This document shows, piece after piece, positions 384 through 8,218 of a stretch of DNA of 8,218 bases (position 1 is its first letter; each line of letters begins with the position of its first letter). The position numbers were made by a program, and so were the translations under genes. Location of the stretch: the NCBI GenBank assembly GCA_031263435.1, contig JAISFT010000231.1, forward strand, positions 1 to 8,218, in the 5' to 3' direction. Under the pieces are notes generated by a model, which did not search any database, was not told the DNA's origin, and saw only the letters and a list, made by a program, of their open reading frames with translations. Source of the DNA: Treponema sp. (GTDB taxonomy: Bacteria; Spirochaetota; Spirochaetia; Treponematales; Breznakiellaceae).

Positions 384-424
384 CCGCTCCATAAAAACGC
401 TTGCGCGTTTGTTATTCCGCTTCC
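384..424 (-). repeat. AGCG-boxed hairpin overlapping the trmJ-like stop codon
   Basis: Read on the minus strand, a GAAGCGGA box (416-423) is followed by a 10-bp stem with one bulged C (ATAA-C-AAACGC, 405-415, pairing with 391-400). The loop is GCAA (401-404), and a GGAGCGG box (384-390) follows. The layout of box, bulged stem, short loop and box resembles the better-preserved copies at 1375-1431 and 6717-6773, although no outer stem is evident here. The TAA stop of the trmJ-like gene (412-414) lies in the stem, and its last sense codons are the AGCG box. A neighbouring 5-bp hairpin, GGGGC-tcc-GCCCC, at about 435-447 lies in the same coding tail. Confidence 0.5.
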
Positions 425-1275
425 CCCTTCCCCTGGGGCTCCGCCCCAAACCCCGCAAAGGGCGTTTTTTCAGGAGGGGACGCACCCCGGAGGGCAAGCC
501 GGGCGGCCTTGGCAAAAAGATCCCCCAGGTAGTCCCCCTCCCGCATGGAAAGGGCGGCCCGGGAAATCAGATCCCGGATAAACCGGGTCTGCGCCTCCCG
601 TCCGGGGTGGCGGTAAAAGCCCAGGCTTTCCAGATTCCCCACGATAGAGGCGGTCAGGGCCTCCGCCCCACGGCGGTCCAGGGGTATCCAGGCCCCCTTA
701 ACCTCCCCGGCCGGCGGGGCGGCGCGATCCGGCATCCCCGCCGTTAAGGCATCCATCATCAAAGCGCTGGGAGTTTCCGGCCCCAGGGCGCGAAACAGCT
801 CATAGCCATAAATCTGAACCGCGTGGGAAAGGTTAAGGGAGGGGAAGGCCCCGGATACGGGGATGTGGGAGGCAATGTTGCAGAGGGCCAGTTCTTCATC
901 GTCCAGGCCGCTCCGCTCATTGCCAAAGGCCAGGGCCGCCTTTCCCGGTCTGCCGCGGAGCCAAAGGGCAAGTTCCCGGCAGTCCATGGTTACGTCCTTC
1001 CGTTTCCGGCCCCGCCGCCGGGTAGTCCCGGCAAGGATACTACAGTCCGCCGCGGCCGCTTCCAGGGTTTCAAAATACCCGGCCTCCTCCCAAATTCCGG
1101 CGGCGTGGACCGCACGGGACCGGATCTCCCCCTCAAAGGGGGCAAGATCGGCCCCGGAAAGACCCGTTATCCTTAGTTTTGACAGGCCCATGTTCATCAT
1201 GGCCCGGCAAACCGCCCCGATATTGCCCGGGTCCCCGGGCCGGCAAAGGATTACAACGATTTCCCGCAGTTCCAT
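412..1275 (-). CDS. trmJ: TrmJ/SpoU-type tRNA (cytidine/uridine-2'-O-)-methyltransferase
   Basis: The 287-residue protein has the three SPOUT-knot motifs in order. Motif 1 is NIGAVCRAMMNMG (residues 18-30, with Arg24 as the likely catalytic arginine). Motif 2 is AFGNERSGL (116-124) and motif 3 is IPVSGAFPSLNLSHAVQIY (138-156). The start MELREIVVILCRPGDPGN is typical of TrmJ, which methylates the 2'-OH of nucleotide 32 in tRNAs using S-adenosylmethionine and acts as a knotted dimer in the cytoplasm. E. coli TrmJ is about 246 residues. The extra length lies in the C-terminal part, and roughly the last 15 residues (up to GKGEAE) read through a palindromic repeat that also supplies the stop codon. 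Only a weak AGG precedes the ATG, and an AT-rich TATATGAT lies about 15 nt upstream. The SPOUT family call is firm. The exact target (TrmJ rather than another SpoU enzyme) is less so. Confidence 0.85.
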   Translation of the reverse strand: MELREIVVILCRPGDPGNIGAVCRAMMNMGLSKLRITGLSGADLAPFEGEIRSRAVHAAGIWEEAGYFETLEAAAADCSILAGTTRRRGRKRKDVTMDCRELALWLRGRPGKAALAFGNERSGLDDEELALCNIASHIPVSGAFPSLNLSHAVQIYGYELFRALGPETPSALMMDALTAGMPDRAAPPAGEVKGAWIPLDRRGAEALTASIVGNLESLGFYRHPGREAQTRFIRDLISRAALSMREGDYLGDLFAKAARLALRGASPPEKTPFAGFGAEPQGKGEAE

Positions 1276-1313: not shown

Positions 1314-1342
1314 GGGAGTTTGGGGCAAAGCCCCAAACTCCC
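1314..1342. repeat. 13-bp perfect palindrome with AAA loop
   Basis: GGGAGTTTGGGGC (1314-1326) pairs with GCCCCAAACTCCC (1330-1342) around AAA. It lies about 40 nt upstream of the minus-strand trmJ-like start and is the first of a run of stacked hairpins ending at about 1456. No T-run follows on either strand. Confidence 0.75.
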
Positions 1343-1344
1343 AA

Positions 1345-1367
1345 GGCGAAAGCCGCAGGCTTTCGCC
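1345..1367. repeat. 10-bp perfect palindrome with GCA loop
   Basis: GGCGAAAGCC (1345-1354) pairs with GGCTTTCGCC (1358-1367) around GCA. It sits immediately before the 99-nt element at 1369-1467. The apex CC-GCA-GG is the same as in several other hairpins of the window, while the arms are unrelated. Confidence 0.75.
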
Positions 1368-1368
1368 C

Positions 1369-1467
1369 GCGCACGGGATAGAAGCGGTATCCTTTTTTGC
1401 CGCAGGCAAAAAAGATACAAGCGGATAGCCCGGTCCCCCGGCCCGCAGGGCCGGGGATGCGCCCAAA
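1369..1467 (+). repeat. Dispersed hairpin element, copy A (99 nt)
   Basis: This element is repeated in inverted orientation at 6682-6779. Bases 1375-1434 are identical to the other copy. In order it contains GGGATA (1375-1380), GAAGCG (1381-1386) and GTATC with a bulged C. Then come TTTTTTGCC-gca-GGCAAAAAA (1393-1413), GATAC (1414-1418), AGCGGA (1420-1425) and TAGCCC (1426-1431). The ends GGGxTA and TAxCCC can pair. A second hairpin follows: a 9-bp CCCCGGCCC-gca-GGGCCGGGG (1436-1456). Its outer bases differ from copy B on both arms in a complementary way. There is no coding potential. I infer a structured mobile or dispersed element of the MITE/REP type, or a structured transcript end. I recall similar sequences in other treponemes and Bacteroidota but cannot confirm this here. 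Confidence 0.85.
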
Positions 1468-1655: not shown

Positions 1656-2204
1656 ATGACAAATAATGAGATAGTCCCTGGTTTCGATGATGAAAAGGAT
1701 GAAAGCCTTAAAATACAACTCCAGAAGGTGGACGGAGTAGAAGGGTGTCTGATTCTCTATCTGAATGGGTATATTGATACCTATAACTCAAATTACTTTC
1801 AAAAAAGGGTTGCCAGGGCGATTGAAAAGGGGTTTACCAAGCTTATTTTCCAGTGCAACGGGCTGAACTACGTTTCTTCTACCGGTATTGGTTCTTTTAC
1901 GGCCTTTCTTAAATCGGTAAAGCCCCGGGGCGGGGACTTGGTGCTGCTGGAAATCCAGCCCAAGGTGTACGAGGTGTTCCAGCTTCTTGGTTTCTCCCAG
2001 TTTTTTAATATCCGGGAAAATCTGGATGAGTCGGTGAATTACTTCCAGTCCGGCGTTGCCGAGTCGGTGTCTCTGTTCCCCAAGGTCTTTGCCTGTCCTA
2101 TCTGTAACAAGAAACTTAAAGCCCTTAAGCCCGGCCGTTTTCGTTGTTCCGAGTGTAAAACTATCCTTGCCATTGATAATGGAGGCCAGGTTTTCCTGGG
2201 TTGA
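1656..2204 (+). CDS. STAS-domain protein with C-terminal zinc ribbon
   Basis: The 182-residue protein has two parts. Residues about 17-125 form a STAS (anti-sigma-factor antagonist) domain, with a strand-rich start (CLILYLNGYID) and the loop NYVSSTGIGSF (71-81). In SpoIIAA/RsbV-type proteins this loop reads DS(S/T)G and carries the serine phosphorylated by a partner kinase. Here Ser75/Thr76 are in place but the preceding Asp is Ser. Residues about 144-174 form a zinc ribbon with paired cysteines CPIC (147, 150) and CSEC (164, 167). The likely role is a protein-protein switch, perhaps with an anti-sigma factor or phosphatase elsewhere. No kinase is in the window. A clear ribosome site AAGGGAG (1645-1651) supports the start. 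The next gene begins 3 nt after the stop, so the two are probably co-transcribed and coupled. Confidence 0.85.
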   Translation: MTNNEIVPGFDDEKDESLKIQLQKVDGVEGCLILYLNGYIDTYNSNYFQKRVARAIEKGFTKLIFQCNGLNYVSSTGIGSFTAFLKSVKPRGGDLVLLEIQPKVYEVFQLLGFSQFFNIRENLDESVNYFQSGVAESVSLFPKVFACPICNKKLKALKPGRFRCSECKTILAIDNGGQVFLG

Positions 2205-2924: not shown

Positions 2925-3027
2925 TTTTTCAGAGTTTTTTTGGATATTCTTCCGGAGTTTTGGGGTATTCTTCCGGAATTTTTTCAGAGTTTTTGTGGTG
3001 TTTTTCCGGATCGAGCGGCTTTTTTTA
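2925..3027 (+). repeat. T-rich imperfect direct repeats with TTCCGGA sites
   Basis: This stretch is dominated by T-runs. TTTTTCAGAGTTTTT occurs twice (about 2925-2939 and 2981-2995). GGTATTCTTCCGGA-type units occur at about 2943-2956 and 2964-2977. The 7-mer TTCCGGA occurs three times, starting at 2950, 2971 (as the palindrome TTCCGGAA) and 3004, so the first two are 21 nt apart. A frame through it repeats ILPEF, but it has no ribosome site and ends in low-complexity sequence. Function is unknown; a protein-binding or transcription-termination region is possible. Confidence 0.55.
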
Positions 3028-3507: not shown

Positions 3508-3659
3508 GCGCAAGGGATAGGAGGGGCGCGTGTCCACCGCAGGTGGACTTGCGTTCCCGAAGCGTGGCAGCCGGAGGCTGCCTTAGCGGAGGGAAGGGAG
3601 CGCGGCCGCCGCAGGCGGCCTTGGCGGAACCCTGGCAACCTGCGGTTGCCTTGATAGCC
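3508..3659 (+). repeat. Array of four 7-3-7 hairpins with element-type ends
   Basis: The left end GCGCAAGGGATA (3508-3519) and right end GATAGCC (3653-3659) match the corresponding parts of the 98-99 nt element copies. Between them, instead of one hairpin, there are four 17-nt palindromes, each with a 7-bp perfect stem and 3-nt loop: GTCCACC-gca (3532-3548), GGCAGCC-gga (3566-3582), GGCCGCC-gca (3604-3620) and GGCAACC-tgc (3634-3650). Each is followed by TT, and their starts are 34, 38 and 30 nt apart. GCG-containing boxes flank them (GAAGCG 3559-3564, AGCGGA 3585-3590, GGCGGA 3623-3628). Outer stems can also form: TTCCC (3554-3558) with GGGAA (3591-3595), and AGGG (3595-3598) with CCCT (3630-3633). 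I see a noncoding structured element; its role is unknown. Confidence 0.75.
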
Positions 3660-3680
3660 TGAGTTTTTTGCGGCAAAGAA

Positions 3681-3810: not shown

Positions 3811-4731
3811 ATGAAAAATGTTGCCCGGCTGGCGCTTTTTTTCACTATTTCCTTTGCCGCTGTCTTCATTTCGGCCGCCCTTGTCCATTTTTTGCGTATA
3901 CGGATCGATGTAATCCGCTCCATGCCCCCCCAAAATGGACATCTTGGGGTGGAATTGCTGGCGGCGTTCCGCTGGGCCCTGCCGGTTTCCCTTTATTCCT
4001 CCCTGCTTTTCAGCCTTAGCTACACGGTAAGACGCCGGATCTTCGCCCCCGTGGCTATGCTTTGCCTTTTTATCCTGGGTTCCGCCATTTGTCTGGGCGT
4101 TACCGTGGGGGCGGAAGGCTTTTCCCGGCTTGCGGAGTACTTTGCCCCCTCAAAATCCCTGGGAAATCCCGGCCTTATCCTGACCCAGGCGGACAACGCC
4201 ATCGTGCTTATCAAGGACCCTTCGGATCCCTGGGGGCCGCGGGTAGCGTCCATTCCCGGCCGGCCCCTGCTCTACCAGGAACTGCCCCGGGGACCGGACA
4301 ACAAGCCTATCGGTCTGCCTCCCATTCCCTTCAGGACCGGTACGGCCTGGATTCTGCAAAGTTCTATTATCGATTTTTCCCTTGTAAGCGGGGAACTGGT
4401 ACGCCGTTTTGCCTCCCCCGGGGGAATCCGGCCCTTCCTTATCTATACCTGCGCCCTGGTCTTCTTCCTTGTTTCCCTGCGTTTTGCCCTGGGTTTGAGT
4501 AACTGGCCGCTGGCTAATCTCTTTTTGGGGGCCCTCCTTTTCCGGGCCATCCTGACCATGGAGGTCTTTTTCAGGGACCCGGAAACGGAGAAGATTCTGG
4601 ACAGTCTGTTGGGGGGCCTTATTCCTCCCCTGTATATCACCCCTCTGATCTTCCTGTTCCTGGGTTTCCTGGTTTGTCTTTATACCTTCCTGAGTTTTCT
4701 AGCCCGGAGAAAGGATACCTATGAAAGCTAA
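3811..4731 (+). CDS. Polytopic membrane protein with LptF/LptG-like 3+3 topology
   Basis: I do not recognise a close family. The 306-residue protein shows six probable membrane helices in two groups of three. The first group is at about 8-29, 54-72 and 78-100. Then come about 105 non-membrane residues (101-205), followed by helices at about 207-227, 233-254 and 270-297. A three-helix, extracytoplasmic domain, three-helix layout is the hallmark of the permeases LptF and LptG. LPVSLYSSLLF before helix 2 and the C-terminal IPPLYITPLIFLFLGFLVCLYTF also resemble those proteins. The cytoplasmic coupling loop between helices 2 and 3 is very short (YTVRRR), so this would be a divergent member. The start is poorly supported: only an AGG (3799-3801) lies at a usual distance. 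The 3' end overlaps the next gene by 11 nt, implying one operon and a joint complex. Confidence 0.6.
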   Translation: MKNVARLALFFTISFAAVFISAALVHFLRIRIDVIRSMPPQNGHLGVELLAAFRWALPVSLYSSLLFSLSYTVRRRIFAPVAMLCLFILGSAICLGVTVGAEGFSRLAEYFAPSKSLGNPGLILTQADNAIVLIKDPSDPWGPRVASIPGRPLLYQELPRGPDNKPIGLPPIPFRTGTAWILQSSIIDFSLVSGELVRRFASPGGIRPFLIYTCALVFFLVSLRFALGLSNWPLANLFLGALLFRAILTMEVFFRDPETEKILDSLLGGLIPPLYITPLIFLFLGFLVCLYTFLSFLARRKDTYES

Positions 4732-6646
4732 AAAGGAGATCCTGCTTGCTCCCCCGGCTTTGTTTGTGTATTACATGCTGGCCTCCTCCCTGGTAATCAT
4801 GGGTTTCCGCTCTTTCTTTCCCAGCCAGGAAGCGCCCCTTGCCATTTTTTCCCGGGACTGGCGGTTTACCCTGGGAATTTTGGAAATCCTTTCCCTGTTC
4901 CCCGCCCTGGCCTTTAGCGCCCTGGTTTTTCCCTTTGGGTTTCGGATCTACTACAACGAGTACAAAAGTTTTTCCCCCCATTTTCTGGATCAGTTCAGGG
5001 GGACCATGATCACCGCCATCCTGGCCGCCATTGTTTATGCCCTGCTCTTCTTTCTGGTTCAGCCGGTATTCCAGGATAAGCGGATTGATATGACGTACCG
5101 GGGCAATATGTACCGCCTGGCCCGGGACCTGGCCGCAGACCGGATTGAGCAGGGGGCCTGGGAGTCGGCGGCCGGATTCCTGCGTATCGCCGGGCATATC
5201 TGGCCCTACAGCCCGGAACTTACGGGAATTCGGGAAAAGACCGAAATCGAACTGGAAGCAAGGCGGATCCGAAGGGAGGGGGAAGAGCGGGCCGCCCTGA
5301 ATGAGGCCAGGGACAGGGATCGCCGGGCCAGTCCGGCTTTCCAAAACCGCGGCATCCCCCAGATAGCGTCTCCCCTTTCCCCGGAACAGCGGCAGCCCCT
5401 GAATACCCCGGAAGCCCTGGATATGGCCGCCGCGGCCATGCAGGAAGAACGTTACTATGATGCCCACTGGCTTGCGACCCTGGGTACACAGCTTGCCCGG
5501 ACAGGGAGCCCGGAGGCGGCCGCCGCGTCAAGAGCCGCAGCCCTGGCCTGGGACAAGATTTCTTCCCTGGCCCCCAATACGCGGGAAACGGAACTCTACG
5601 ACCGCTTTAAGCTTAAGCAGTCCGGTTACGAGGCCATGGTGGCGGAGGACTGGATCAGGGCCTATTACATCTTCCGGGAACTATCGGAACAAAGCCCCGG
5701 CGATCCCGATGTCCGGAATTTTCTTCTAAAAAGCGAAGAGGGCATCCAAAGCATTGCCTTTTTTACCGATGAACTGACCCGCGGCGCGGGGAGCATCATA
5801 ACCAACGCGGTTTTTTCCCTGCCCTACCAGCCTTTGGGGGGCGGGGCGGGGCGGGGAATCATCCGGTTCACCTCGATTTCCCTGCACCAGGACTTTGGCT
5901 ACGGCCTGGGGGTCGAATTTATCTGTTTTGACAGCGAAAACCTGCCGGAAACCCGTTTCCAGGCCCCCTACGCCAAAATTATACCCATGACCCTGGGGGG
6001 GCGGCCCCGGGTGGTGGTATTGATGCAGACCTTGGATCGTAACGATGGAAACCGGCGCTGGGAGCCGGTGTGGAGTTCCCTGGAAAACCCCGCCCGCCGT
6101 CCCCTGCCCGCCGTGGATAAGCCCGGGGCCCAGGGGGGCTTTCTCCGTTCAGTCATCGGGGACAACCAGTTAATGCTGGATCTGGACTTTGAGAGCTTTG
6201 TCCTACTCTGCTATACCTGGCGCGGCCTGGCGGCTCCCCCCGGTTCAACGGACTATATGCCGCCTCTGGACGGATTCTCCCTGGGGGATCTCCTTGCCGG
6301 GGCCCGGGCCCTAAGCCCCTACGGTTATGTGCCCCAGGTCTTTGAGGCGGAGATCATCTACCGGCTCTGCGAACCCCTGTTTTTCCTGCCCATGGCGATT
6401 ATCTTTATCATTGCCGGCTGGCGGTTCCGGGCTCTTTCCCATGCCCGGCTTGTCTTTGTTCCCATGCTTTTCATATTGCCCCTGATTTTCTATGGGCTGC
6501 TCTACTTTTACCGGCACATCCTTAACATTCTGGGCGTTTTTTCGGTGCTGAACCTGGGCTTCTCCCTTACCCTGATCATCTACTGCCTTGGCGCGGGGAT
6601 TCTCTTTGTCCTTTCTCTTATCGTTTTTGTGTCCCAGCATAGCTAA
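4721..6646 (+). CDS. Large LptF/LptG-like permease with helical-repeat insert
   Basis: The 641-residue protein has membrane helices at about 10-30, 49-75 and 95-117, a long extracytoplasmic region (about 118-548), then helices at about 550-567, 576-596 and 612-637. Residues about 130-345 look like TPR-type helical pairs (for example WIRAYYIFRELSEQSPGDPDVRNFL at 311-335), with a charged, Arg/Glu-rich linker at 175-205. Residues about 355-500 look beta-rich. RGIIRFTSISLHQ (378-390), then GVEFICFDSENLPETRFQA (397-415), resembles the jellyroll of LptF/G. FSLGDLLAGARALSPYGYVPQVFEAEIIYRL (519-549), leading into helix 4, resembles the conserved pre-helix segment of that family. Known LptF/G proteins (about 360 residues) extract lipopolysaccharide from the inner membrane with the ATPase LptB. 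No ATPase gene is in the window. AAAGG (4710-4714) is a good ribosome site. The assignment comes from layout and motif resemblance only, not an alignment. Confidence 0.65.
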   Translation: MKAKKEILLAPPALFVYYMLASSLVIMGFRSFFPSQEAPLAIFSRDWRFTLGILEILSLFPALAFSALVFPFGFRIYYNEYKSFSPHFLDQFRGTMITAILAAIVYALLFFLVQPVFQDKRIDMTYRGNMYRLARDLAADRIEQGAWESAAGFLRIAGHIWPYSPELTGIREKTEIELEARRIRREGEERAALNEARDRDRRASPAFQNRGIPQIASPLSPEQRQPLNTPEALDMAAAAMQEERYYDAHWLATLGTQLARTGSPEAAAASRAAALAWDKISSLAPNTRETELYDRFKLKQSGYEAMVAEDWIRAYYIFRELSEQSPGDPDVRNFLLKSEEGIQSIAFFTDELTRGAGSIITNAVFSLPYQPLGGGAGRGIIRFTSISLHQDFGYGLGVEFICFDSENLPETRFQAPYAKIIPMTLGGRPRVVVLMQTLDRNDGNRRWEPVWSSLENPARRPLPAVDKPGAQGGFLRSVIGDNQLMLDLDFESFVLLCYTWRGLAAPPGSTDYMPPLDGFSLGDLLAGARALSPYGYVPQVFEAEIIYRLCEPLFFLPMAIIFIIAGWRFRALSHARLVFVPMLFILPLIFYGLLYFYRHILNILGVFSVLNLGFSLTLIIYCLGAGILFVLSLIVFVSQHS

Positions 6647-6681: not shown

Positions 6682-6779
6682 TTTGGGCGCATTTCCGGCC
6701 CTGCGGGCCGGAAACCGGGCTATCCGCTTGTATCTTTTTTGCCTGCGGCAAAAAAGGATACCGCTTCTATCCCTTGCGC
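6682..6779 (-). repeat. Dispersed hairpin element, copy B (98 nt, inverted)
   Basis: Reverse-complemented, this matches 1369-1467 with 60 identical bases in a row, one mismatch near the left end (GCGCAAGGG against GCGCACGGG), one 1-nt indel and changes in the second hairpin. On the plus strand the hairpins are TTTCCGGCCC-tgc-GGGCCGGAAA (6692-6714, 10 bp) and TTTTTTGCC-tgc-GGCAAAAAA (6735-6755, extended by GTATC/GATAC). The core module runs 6717-6773. It lies 35 nt after the stop of the large membrane-protein gene and may also affect the 3' end of its transcript. Confidence 0.85.
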
Positions 6780-6780
6780 T

Positions 6781-6805
6781 GCTCAACGCACTTTGTGCGT
6801 TGAGC
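6781..6805. repeat. 11-bp perfect palindrome with TTT loop
   Basis: GCTCAACGCAC (6781-6791) pairs with GTGCGTTGAGC (6795-6805) around TTT. It abuts copy B on the same side on which the 10-bp palindrome at 1345-1367 abuts copy A, but its sequence is unrelated. A smaller TTCGC-ttt-GCGAA hairpin follows at 6814-6826. Confidence 0.75.
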
Positions 6806-6959: not shown

Positions 6960-8218
6960 ATGCTGGAAAGTCAAAAGGTACGGGCCATTGCGCCGGAAAT
7001 GGACCCCCTGCGGATGGGGATGGGCTGGACGGCGGAGGACCTGGGAAAGCCGCAGATTCTGGTGGAAAGCACCTTCGGCGACAGTCATCCGGGGAGCGCC
7101 CACTTGCTGGGCCTGGTGGAACGGGTGACGGCCGCGGTGGGGGCTGGCGGCGGCAGGGGGGCCCGCTACTTTGCCACGGATATTTGCGACGGCATGGCCC
7201 AGGGTCACGACGGTATCAACTACTCTCTGGCAAGCCGGGACACGATCTGCGCCCTTATCGAGATCCACGCCAGGGCTACCACCTTTGACGGGGCGGTGCT
7301 GCTTTCAAGCTGCGATAAGGCGGTCCCCGCCCACCTGATGGCTATCGGGCGGCTCAACATTCCGGCCATCCTGGTGCCCGGCGGGGTCATGGACGCGGGG
7401 CCGGAGCTTCTTACCCTGGAACAGATTGGGACCTACAGCGCCATGGAACGGCGGGGGGAGATTACCGGGGAACAACTGGACTACTACAAGCAGCACGCCT
7501 GTCCTTCCTGCGGGGCCTGTAGTTTTATGGGGACCGCCTCTACCATGCAGATCATGGCGGAGGCCCTGGGGCTGGCCTTTCCCGGCAGCGCCCTTTTGCC
7601 CGCCCTGGGCGGCGATCTGCGGGACGTGGCGGCCCGGGCGGGGGAGCAGATCGTCCTCCTGGCCCGGCAGGGGCTTAAGGCCCGGGACATCGTGACCGCC
7701 CGGAGTTTTGAAAACGCAATCCTGGTCCACGCGGCCATCTCCGGCTCCTCCAATTCCCTGATCCACCTGCCCGCCATTGCCCGGGAATTCGGGGTGGAAC
7801 TGGATGCGGAGAGCTTTGACCGTATCCACCGGGGGGCCCGCTACCTTTTGGACATCCGCCCTGCGGGAAGGTGGCCGGCCCGGTACTTCCACGCCGCCGG
7901 GGGGGTCCCCCGAATCATGGAGGAGATCAAGGACCGGCTGCACCTGGACGCCCTGACCATTACCGGTAAAACCCTGGGGGAAAATCTGGAGGAACTGCGG
8001 CGGAGCGCCTACTACGAAGACTGCGAGCGGGATTTGCGGGAATCCTCCGGCCGGGCGGGGCTTAGTATCAGCCGCACCGATGTTATCCGCGGCATTGACA
8101 AGCCCATGGGCAGCGACGGCGCTATCGCGGTCCTGAAGGGGAACCTGGCGCCGGAGGGGGCGGTGGTAAAACATTCGGCGGTCCCCAAGGAAATGTTCCA
8201 CGCCGTCCTGCGGGCCCG
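6960..8218 (+). CDS. IlvD/Edd-family dehydratase (3' end outside the window)
   Basis: The frame is open from the ATG at 6960 to the window edge (419 codons; the family is usually about 550-600). ICDGMAQGHDGINYSLASRD (75-94) contains a metal-binding Asp77. SCDKAVPAHLMA (117-128) holds Cys118, Asp119 and Lys120, the lysine position carbamylated in studied dihydroxy-acid dehydratases. CPSCGACSFMGTASTMQIMAEALGL (181-205) holds the cluster cysteine(s). The segment HPGSAHLL (43-50) has Gly where [2Fe-2S] members have Cys, as in the E. coli IlvD type. Enzymes of this family dehydrate dihydroxy-acids (branched-chain amino-acid synthesis) or sugar acids. Which substrate applies cannot be told here, and no ilv or sugar genes are visible. 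The ribosome site AAGGGAG (6945-6951), 8 nt upstream, fixes the start. Confidence 0.88.
   Translation, partial: MLESQKVRAIAPEMDPLRMGMGWTAEDLGKPQILVESTFGDSHPGSAHLLGLVERVTAAVGAGGGRGARYFATDICDGMAQGHDGINYSLASRDTICALIEIHARATTFDGAVLLSSCDKAVPAHLMAIGRLNIPAILVPGGVMDAGPELLTLEQIGTYSAMERRGEITGEQLDYYKQHACPSCGACSFMGTASTMQIMAEALGLAFPGSALLPALGGDLRDVAARAGEQIVLLARQGLKARDIVTARSFENAILVHAAISGSSNSLIHLPAIAREFGVELDAESFDRIHRGARYLLDIRPAGRWPARYFHAAGGVPRIMEEIKDRLHLDALTITGKTLGENLEELRRSAYYEDCERDLRESSGRAGLSISRTDVIRGIDKPMGSDGAIAVLKGNLAPEGAVVKHSAVPKEMFHAVLRA

Follow-up and report, generated by a model that had tools for sequence, protein, structure and literature searches.

Flavo-1 as a probable palindrome-rich mobile DNA repeat: two inverted copies in a Treponema contig and their relatives

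We propose that Flavo-1, a family in Rfam (RF01705), is a dispersed, non-coding, palindrome-rich mobile DNA repeat similar to REP and MITE elements, mis-filed as an sRNA, whose hairpins are renewed by template switching. We put the probability of this reading at about 0.6, and we doubt the sRNA type that Rfam gives to the family. Flavo-1 is multi-copy, appears in both orientations and is patchy among related genomes; it has sharp ends and no target-site duplication, and its junction and internal loops are conserved. The P2 tip and P3 rarely have the same sequence in two copies, yet they stay near-perfectly Watson-Crick paired, with few wobbles and no strand preference among them, and these wobble data favour DNA over RNA. 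The two copies in the stretch of Treponema DNA analysed here (8,218 nucleotides, hereafter the window) extend a family already known, and what is new is how we read the family. The consulted literature passages that name Flavo-1 do not describe it as a mobile DNA repeat. A review names it where it deals with the most abundant small RNAs of bacteria (PMC9029176), and if Flavo-1 is a DNA repeat, such abundance counts are not counts of sRNA genes.

Two inverted copies and a three-way junction

Copies A and B are opposite in orientation, about 5.2-5.3 kb apart, and identical over a 60-nt core. They appear as two inverted repeats, 1369-1443/6705-6779 (75 nt, 93% complementary) and 1438-1474/6675-6711 (37 nt, 89%). 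Of all 58 inverted pairs that the window contains, these two rank highest, and the next has 37 nt at 76%. Membership in Flavo-1 is decided by a covariance model score of at least 42 bits, the Rfam gathering score, and both copies pass, A with 48.3 bits (match 1360-1439) and B with 45.1 bits (match 6709-6787). A mere local inverted duplication would explain why 60 bases are identical at a distance of 5.3 kb, but it is refuted by the family match and by the copies in many other genomes, and we give it practically no weight.

On folding, both copies form a three-way junction of helices P1 (GCGC...GCGC), P2 and P3. The junction of copy A spans 1369..1464 on the forward strand (from the Rfam match and folds), with P1 pairing 1369-1373 to 1458-1462; that of copy B spans 6685..6779 on the reverse strand (from the inverted repeat, the Rfam match and the fold). 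P2 corresponds to the Rfam core; its internal loops are rich in purines and its tip is long. Its core helix with two 3x3 internal loops is present, the second loop being altered in the subtype of the window. P3 is the 3' hairpin. In copy A (1436..1456, forward strand) it reads CCCCGGCCC-GCA-GGGCCGGGG, with 9 bp and one extra unpaired C, and in copy B (6692..6714, reverse strand) it reads TTTCCGGCCC-GCA-GGGCCGGAAA, with 10 bp and outer pairs TTT/AAA where A has CC/GG. A preliminary description, made from the letters of the window, had reported the inverted twins with 60 shared bases, and the paired change of CC/GG to TT/AA in a hairpin of 9 bp in one copy and 10 bp in the other with a 1-nt indel; the inverted-repeat list, the core comparison and the P3 sequences bear out both. 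By itself, one double change between two copies is weak evidence. The same description had placed the elements at 1369-1467 and 6682-6779. The copies are real, and the element extends farther than these ends on the 5' side. Two further perfect hairpins are found 5' of copy A on the forward strand, one at 1314..1342 (13 bp, loop AAA, by DNA fold), whose GAGTTT...AAACTC portion is similar to the second TD-2 hairpin of Rfam, and one at 1345..1367 that abuts P1 (10 bp, loop GCA, by fold and hairpin search). Copy B has at least one, at 6781..6805 on the reverse strand, also abutting P1 (11 bp, loop AAA, by hairpin search). The DNA fold of 1300-1470 has -61.6 kcal/mol and a z of -9.8, equalled by none of 200 shuffles.

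Most of this structure is outside the Rfam model, which pairs the P2 core only and does not cover P1, P3 or the 5' hairpins. The full repeat would comprise Rfam Flavo-1 together with P1, P3 and optional TD-2-like 5' hairpins. We collected 89 core matches and reduced them to 81 distinct copies by removing one chance match (L007), two without the end motif (L060, L063) and five duplicates. The junction is present in all 81 of these Treponema copies versus 6.6 in shuffles, in a set that was itself cut by the P1 motif. Another 22 copies come from Paraclostridium plasmids, two viral contigs and four other spirochaete genomes; by a simple rule for P1 and P3, 19 of the 22 have the junction (shuffled mean 4.4, maximum 8), some of these passes resting on weak or implausible hairpins. 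P1 varies by lineage (GAGTT, CGGAC, GCGAA, GCGAT, GCGTT) with matching partners. Individual folds are better than shuffles for L091, L032 and L023 (z of -2.7, -2.0 and -5.2), and not clearly so for L183, L185 and L095 (z about -1).

A hairpin abuts P1 on the 5' side in 26 of the 78 copies with sufficient upstream sequence, versus 0.4 in shuffles. At two of the 20 loci scanned (L008 and L026), Rfam TD-2 (RF03162) adjoins Flavo-1 directly on the 5' side, on the same strand and with an overlap of about 10 nt, and the hairpin abutting P1 is the last hairpin of the TD-2 match. The same layout, TD-2 then Flavo-1, is found elsewhere in the match tables of both families. TD-2 differs from Flavo-1 in that it occurs in 85 of 195 genomes, including ones without a Flavo-1 match, and it is not called at the window copies, where the Rfam scan gives no TD-2 covariance-model match at E up to 5. 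One prophage-like contig (L220, G159:C20) has seven or more TD-2 copies, on the same strand and for the most part intergenic, and its genome has no Flavo-1 match at E 0.001. Integron cassettes were considered as an explanation for TD-2 arrays and rejected on inspection of one contig, a prophage-like run with TD-2 antisense in the gaps, where nothing suggests cassettes.

Copy A lies between a reverse-strand ORF at 412..1275, which we take to be a TrmJ/TrmH-like methyltransferase and use as a flank in the empty-site comparison below, and a forward ORF at 1656..2204, presumably a STAS-domain protein. Copy B has an unnamed forward ORF of 641 aa upstream (4721..6646), and downstream another forward ORF that is open at the window end (6960..8216), by our assumption an IlvD/Edd dehydratase. 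The window also includes other repeats. Its perfect short hairpins number 21 versus 2.3 in block-shuffled sequence, those of locus L001 number 18 versus 0.9, and those of L004 and L005 are at or below the block-shuffled level. At 3508-3660, a GCGCAAGGGATAGGAGGGG start similar to the 5' end of Flavo-1 is followed by a series of four palindromes, each perfect over 7 bp and with a 3-nt loop; the Rfam scan gives no match for them, and one internal motif has no convincing relative among the loci searched. At 2937-3011, after a gene ending at 2903, there are three direct 21-nt repeats of the TTTTTGGATATTCTTCCGGAG type, with 71-100% identity.

Covariation and strand symmetry of the hairpins

The preliminary description had suggested a search of relatives, and this search finds many copies, and covariation among them. 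In the 61 copies of the 81 that were aligned, five of the twelve P1/P2 pairs change on both sides with 98.8% of the cells paired, a result reached by none of 500 shuffles. For example, one pair is A-T in 47 copies, T-A in 12 and G-C in 2. On four of five covariation measures no shuffle comes up to the real alignment, on the fifth (further pair types) 13 of the 500 do, and slid controls are lower on every measure. Together with the near-perfect hypervariable hairpins, this supports the earlier suggestion of selection on, or active correction of, the hairpin shape, be it in DNA or in RNA.

Across the 81 copies, P3 occurs in 76 different sequences. In genome G116, all 16 P3 sequences are distinct, and there are 14 distinct cores. 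In the arms of P3 and the P2 tip we count 1298 Watson-Crick pairs (96%), 10 G-T, 15 A-C and 25 others, where 11 of the 81 P3 strings gave arms of at most 4 bp, mostly mis-cut by the end motif or by a 1-nt offset, and added few pairs. The control, 33 distinct tRNAs from 30 loci in three carrier genomes, has 659 Watson-Crick pairs, 44 G-T and no A-C, as called by ARAGORN, which may itself favour allowed pairs. A stem selected as RNA would tolerate G-U on its own strand. The Flavo-1 arms fail this RNA-type pairing test, and the lack of a strand preference points to palindromes that are maintained in the DNA, rather than to selection on one RNA strand. Compensatory change is usually taken as proof of a functional RNA, and here it is accompanied by strand symmetry. 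A count of G-U versus A-C could thus be a cheap test of which entries in a motif collection are DNA palindromes and which are RNAs.

The rival reading is that Flavo-1 is a functional structured RNA, either an independent sRNA or an mRNA element, with compensatory changes that result from selection for its folding as RNA. The strong covariation, the conservation of the purine-rich internal loops and the Rfam type (Gene; sRNA) are what such an RNA would have, and the main point for it is that the RNA fold scores better on the Rfam strand, with z of -4.8 and -4.2 for the two window copies, versus -2.8 and -3.6 on the opposite strand. However, G-T is 0.7% of the pairs in the Flavo-1 arms and is not above A-C, while it is 6.3% in the tRNAs, where A-C is 0. 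The copies have no bias relative to genes, the neighbouring genes being balanced in orientation on the left (28/27) and on the right (37/35) for the 81 copies under mechanical ORF calls, and one genome has at least 74 matches. The part of a transcriptome study that treats Flavo-1 also speaks against an RNA, as it reports matches in sense or antisense alike, without strand preference, and many of them outside transcribed regions (PMC9723704). We find the RNA reading unlikely.

Under the DNA repeat reading that we prefer, template switching at replication would rewrite the hairpin tips by copying one arm onto the other, so that paired changes appear together and without wobble intermediates. Template switching can change both arms of a hairpin in one step, according to the portion of the literature that presents a model of stem evolution (PMC8794818), and we infer it here from the scarcity of intermediates. 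Selection on pairing alone could also produce a variable P3 in which pairing is kept. The hypervariable and near-perfect hairpins of Flavo-1 amount to many natural trials of that template-switch model (PMC8794818).

Distribution, sites and ends

The region orthologous to the window is present in seven Treponema MAGs, which have at least 74, 16, 5, 3, 0, 6 and 9 Flavo-1 matches at E 0.001; five of the seven are above the Rfam cut-off. Of the 195 Treponemataceae genomes, 69 give a Flavo-1 match at E 0.001 and 43 score above the cut-off, compared with none of 14 controls, and at the stricter E of 1e-7 a match is found in 14 of 392 Spirochaetota genomes. Copy counts are lower bounds, since they come from the best 150 scored candidates per genome for the seven MAGs, the best 23 for the 195 genomes and the best 11 for the 392. 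Other sources list Spirochaetes for Flavo-1. The section of PMC2864571 that names the family lists it for Bacteroidetes, while the range found here also includes Bacillota plasmids. Five plasmids of Paraclostridium bifermentans carry Flavo-1 by blastn, with which cmscan agrees in all five regions, and three of the five regions include a second, inverted copy. In L093, L094 and L095, the two inverted copies flank an amidase gene. Around one plasmid copy, some 945 nt without an annotated gene are 85% identical between NZ_CP079741 and CP124692.

For viral contigs, a two-part pattern search gives no hit. The AGCGGATAGCCCGGT pattern gives 46 stretches with a core-like match only in L138 (by regular expression), for which blastn against plasmids and phages finds nothing. 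The AAGATTGNAGCGGAAAG pattern also gives 46 stretches, and two of them (L183 and L185) look like true Flavo-1, again by regular expression. Neither copy A nor the Rfam consensus has a blastn match in phages. In four loci from three one-contig genomes of 2.7-2.8 Mb (L309-L312; G367, G478, G226), the P2 tips are long and P3 is mostly long and perfect. In L309 and L311, which come from two of these genomes, six of six copies are in or across the frames of repeated genes, in one orientation, and some of these genes look Rhs-like by eye.

The genes that flank copy A are 380 bp apart in the window, and 216, 256, 156, 150, 223 and 225 bp apart in L002-L007; the alignment shows no element at this site in L002-L006. 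In L001, the same interval has, in the same orientation as A, a diverged composite of TD-2, recognised by Rfam, and Flavo-1, recognised by a regular expression and below the Rfam cut-off, which implies that site A was filled before that split and later changed, or else was filled twice. For site B, the right-hand gene is not beside B in the loci of the relatives. L023 and L032 match in both flanks (71-73% identity) and have the element in the same orientation, with a swapped pair in P2 and unrelated P3 sequences. From the copy in the same interval of L001 and the orthologous copies of L023 and L032, some copies must be old or re-inserted, which speaks against the mobile reading. For G116, whose genus is represented by two genomes, we looked for an empty site at base level in the second, a close relative, which matched only in short pieces. 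As no filled and empty pair was seen at base level, we infer movement from the distribution. Cores are 90.5% identical within genomes versus 78.2% between them, a difference that none of 500 label shuffles reaches, and 46 of 64 copies have their nearest core neighbour within their own genome; kinship is uncorrected in this test, and 16 copies come from one genome.

These comparisons also bear on a third explanation, in which Flavo-1 is a chromosomal protein-binding or cruciform site, for supercoiling, termination or partition, that is under selection and has little mobility. The orthologous copies of L023 and L032 fit such a site, as does the retention of a copy by each of the five Paraclostridium plasmids. 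It is at odds with the 126 of 195 Treponemataceae genomes without a match at E 0.001, with the similarity of the cores within genomes, and with copy numbers that, within a single genus, differ between 0 in one genome and at least 74 in another. We regard it as improbable.

The ends are sharp. Beyond GCGCAAGGG on one side and GCGCCC on the other, conservation drops, and the bases that follow GCGCCC show a weak bias to A/T. Direct repeats of at least 3 bp flank two of the 81 copies, where 1.6 are expected. There is no neighbouring transposase among the 25 commonest of 116 Pfam families, found in 131 of 172 flanking ORFs; the largest of these 25 is a transporter family with five members. Both results agree with the preliminary description, which had seen neither a target duplication nor a transposase. 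A point against a mobile repeat is that 18 of the 81 copies are inside mechanically called ORFs, and another is the placement of the six copies of L309 and L311.

Search for a mobiliser

If the preferred reading is right, Flavo-1 would multiply within genomes as a non-autonomous mobile element, like a REP or a MITE, and without a known transposase. MITEs are short, non-autonomous, dispersed elements, and Flavo-1 is like them in these respects; it is unlike them in having no target-site duplication and no long terminal inverted repeats, the ends being GCGCAAGGG and GCGCCC. The only inverted ends are the strands of P1, of 4-5 bp. Between close inverted pairs in six genomes (G106, G114, G095, G100, G116, G007) we see no autonomous relative, no recurring gene and no obvious transposase, judging mechanical ORFs by eye.

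REP and BIME repeats with a RAYT share with Flavo-1 dispersed palindromes and a lineage-specific copy number, as the relevant parts of PMC3733652 and PMC6006769 describe them. Flavo-1 differs in that no GTAG tag and no flanked RAYT gene was found, in its three-way junction of about 95 nt, and in its rare wobbles. By comparison, the section of PMC3733652 on GTAG repeats reports that GT pairing is often observed. CGTC-tagged repeats, which that source places in Bacteroidetes and Spirochaetes without an associated transposase, have instead a single stem of 8-9 bp with a CGTC tag, and the Flavo-1 consensus has no CGTC at one end of such a stem.

The REP comparison suggests a specific mover, a RAYT-type Y1 (HUH) transposase, perhaps TnpA-REP subclass 2.6, which the consulted part of PMC6006769 describes as flanked by atypical structures in Bacteroidetes. 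The palindromes and the absence of target-site duplication are compatible with it, and Y1_Tnp (PF01797), present in 119 of 195 genomes, is somewhat commoner in Flavo-1 carriers (51/69) than in the others (68/126; Fisher p 0.009, uncorrected for kinship). G001, G116 and G095 have at least 23 scored copies each, and G095 has 12 Y1_Tnp matches. Against it, Y1_Tnp was not found in G001, G116 or 16 further carriers amongst the 195 Treponemataceae genomes; MAG incompleteness could explain some of these absences. At 20 Y1 loci, cmscan finds no Flavo-1 (0/20). The other 17 of the 37 loci were viewed by regular expression only; such matches at Y1 loci (up to 3 mismatches per 12-mer) look like chance, and cmscan was used in their place. 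Neither a CGTC tag nor a conserved GTAG or GGAG tetranucleotide was found at the hairpin foot or the element ends. Across 195 genomes and 20 loci, RAYT/IS200 as the mobiliser is not supported, and we consider it quite doubtful.

What would be moved, under the mobile repeat reading, is a folded single strand or a cruciform, the likely substrate of a putative mobilising enzyme, and by reading folded DNA this enzyme may keep the core, the junction and the loops constant. The conservation of the core between phyla counts against a mobile repeat, as a purely selfish one would need a conserved partner. In a more far-reaching version, which we hold tentatively as possible and short of probable, Flavo-1 would be a mobile ssDNA or cruciform junction common to Bacteroidota, Spirochaetota and Bacillota, with a mover outside the known Y1/RAYT group, and the outer hairpins of each copy would be rewritten and re-made palindromic by replication-linked templating. 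With members in three phyla and no known mobiliser, the family gives a search a concrete target.

Other repeats are found near Flavo-1 copies or in the same genomes. In G116, a second dispersed repeat of about 267 bp (L240, G116:C57, 199-465 and elsewhere) has many full or partial copies. In G001, the sequence upstream of the Flavo-1 copy of L026 has an apparent IS200 remnant in a nest of palindromic repeats.
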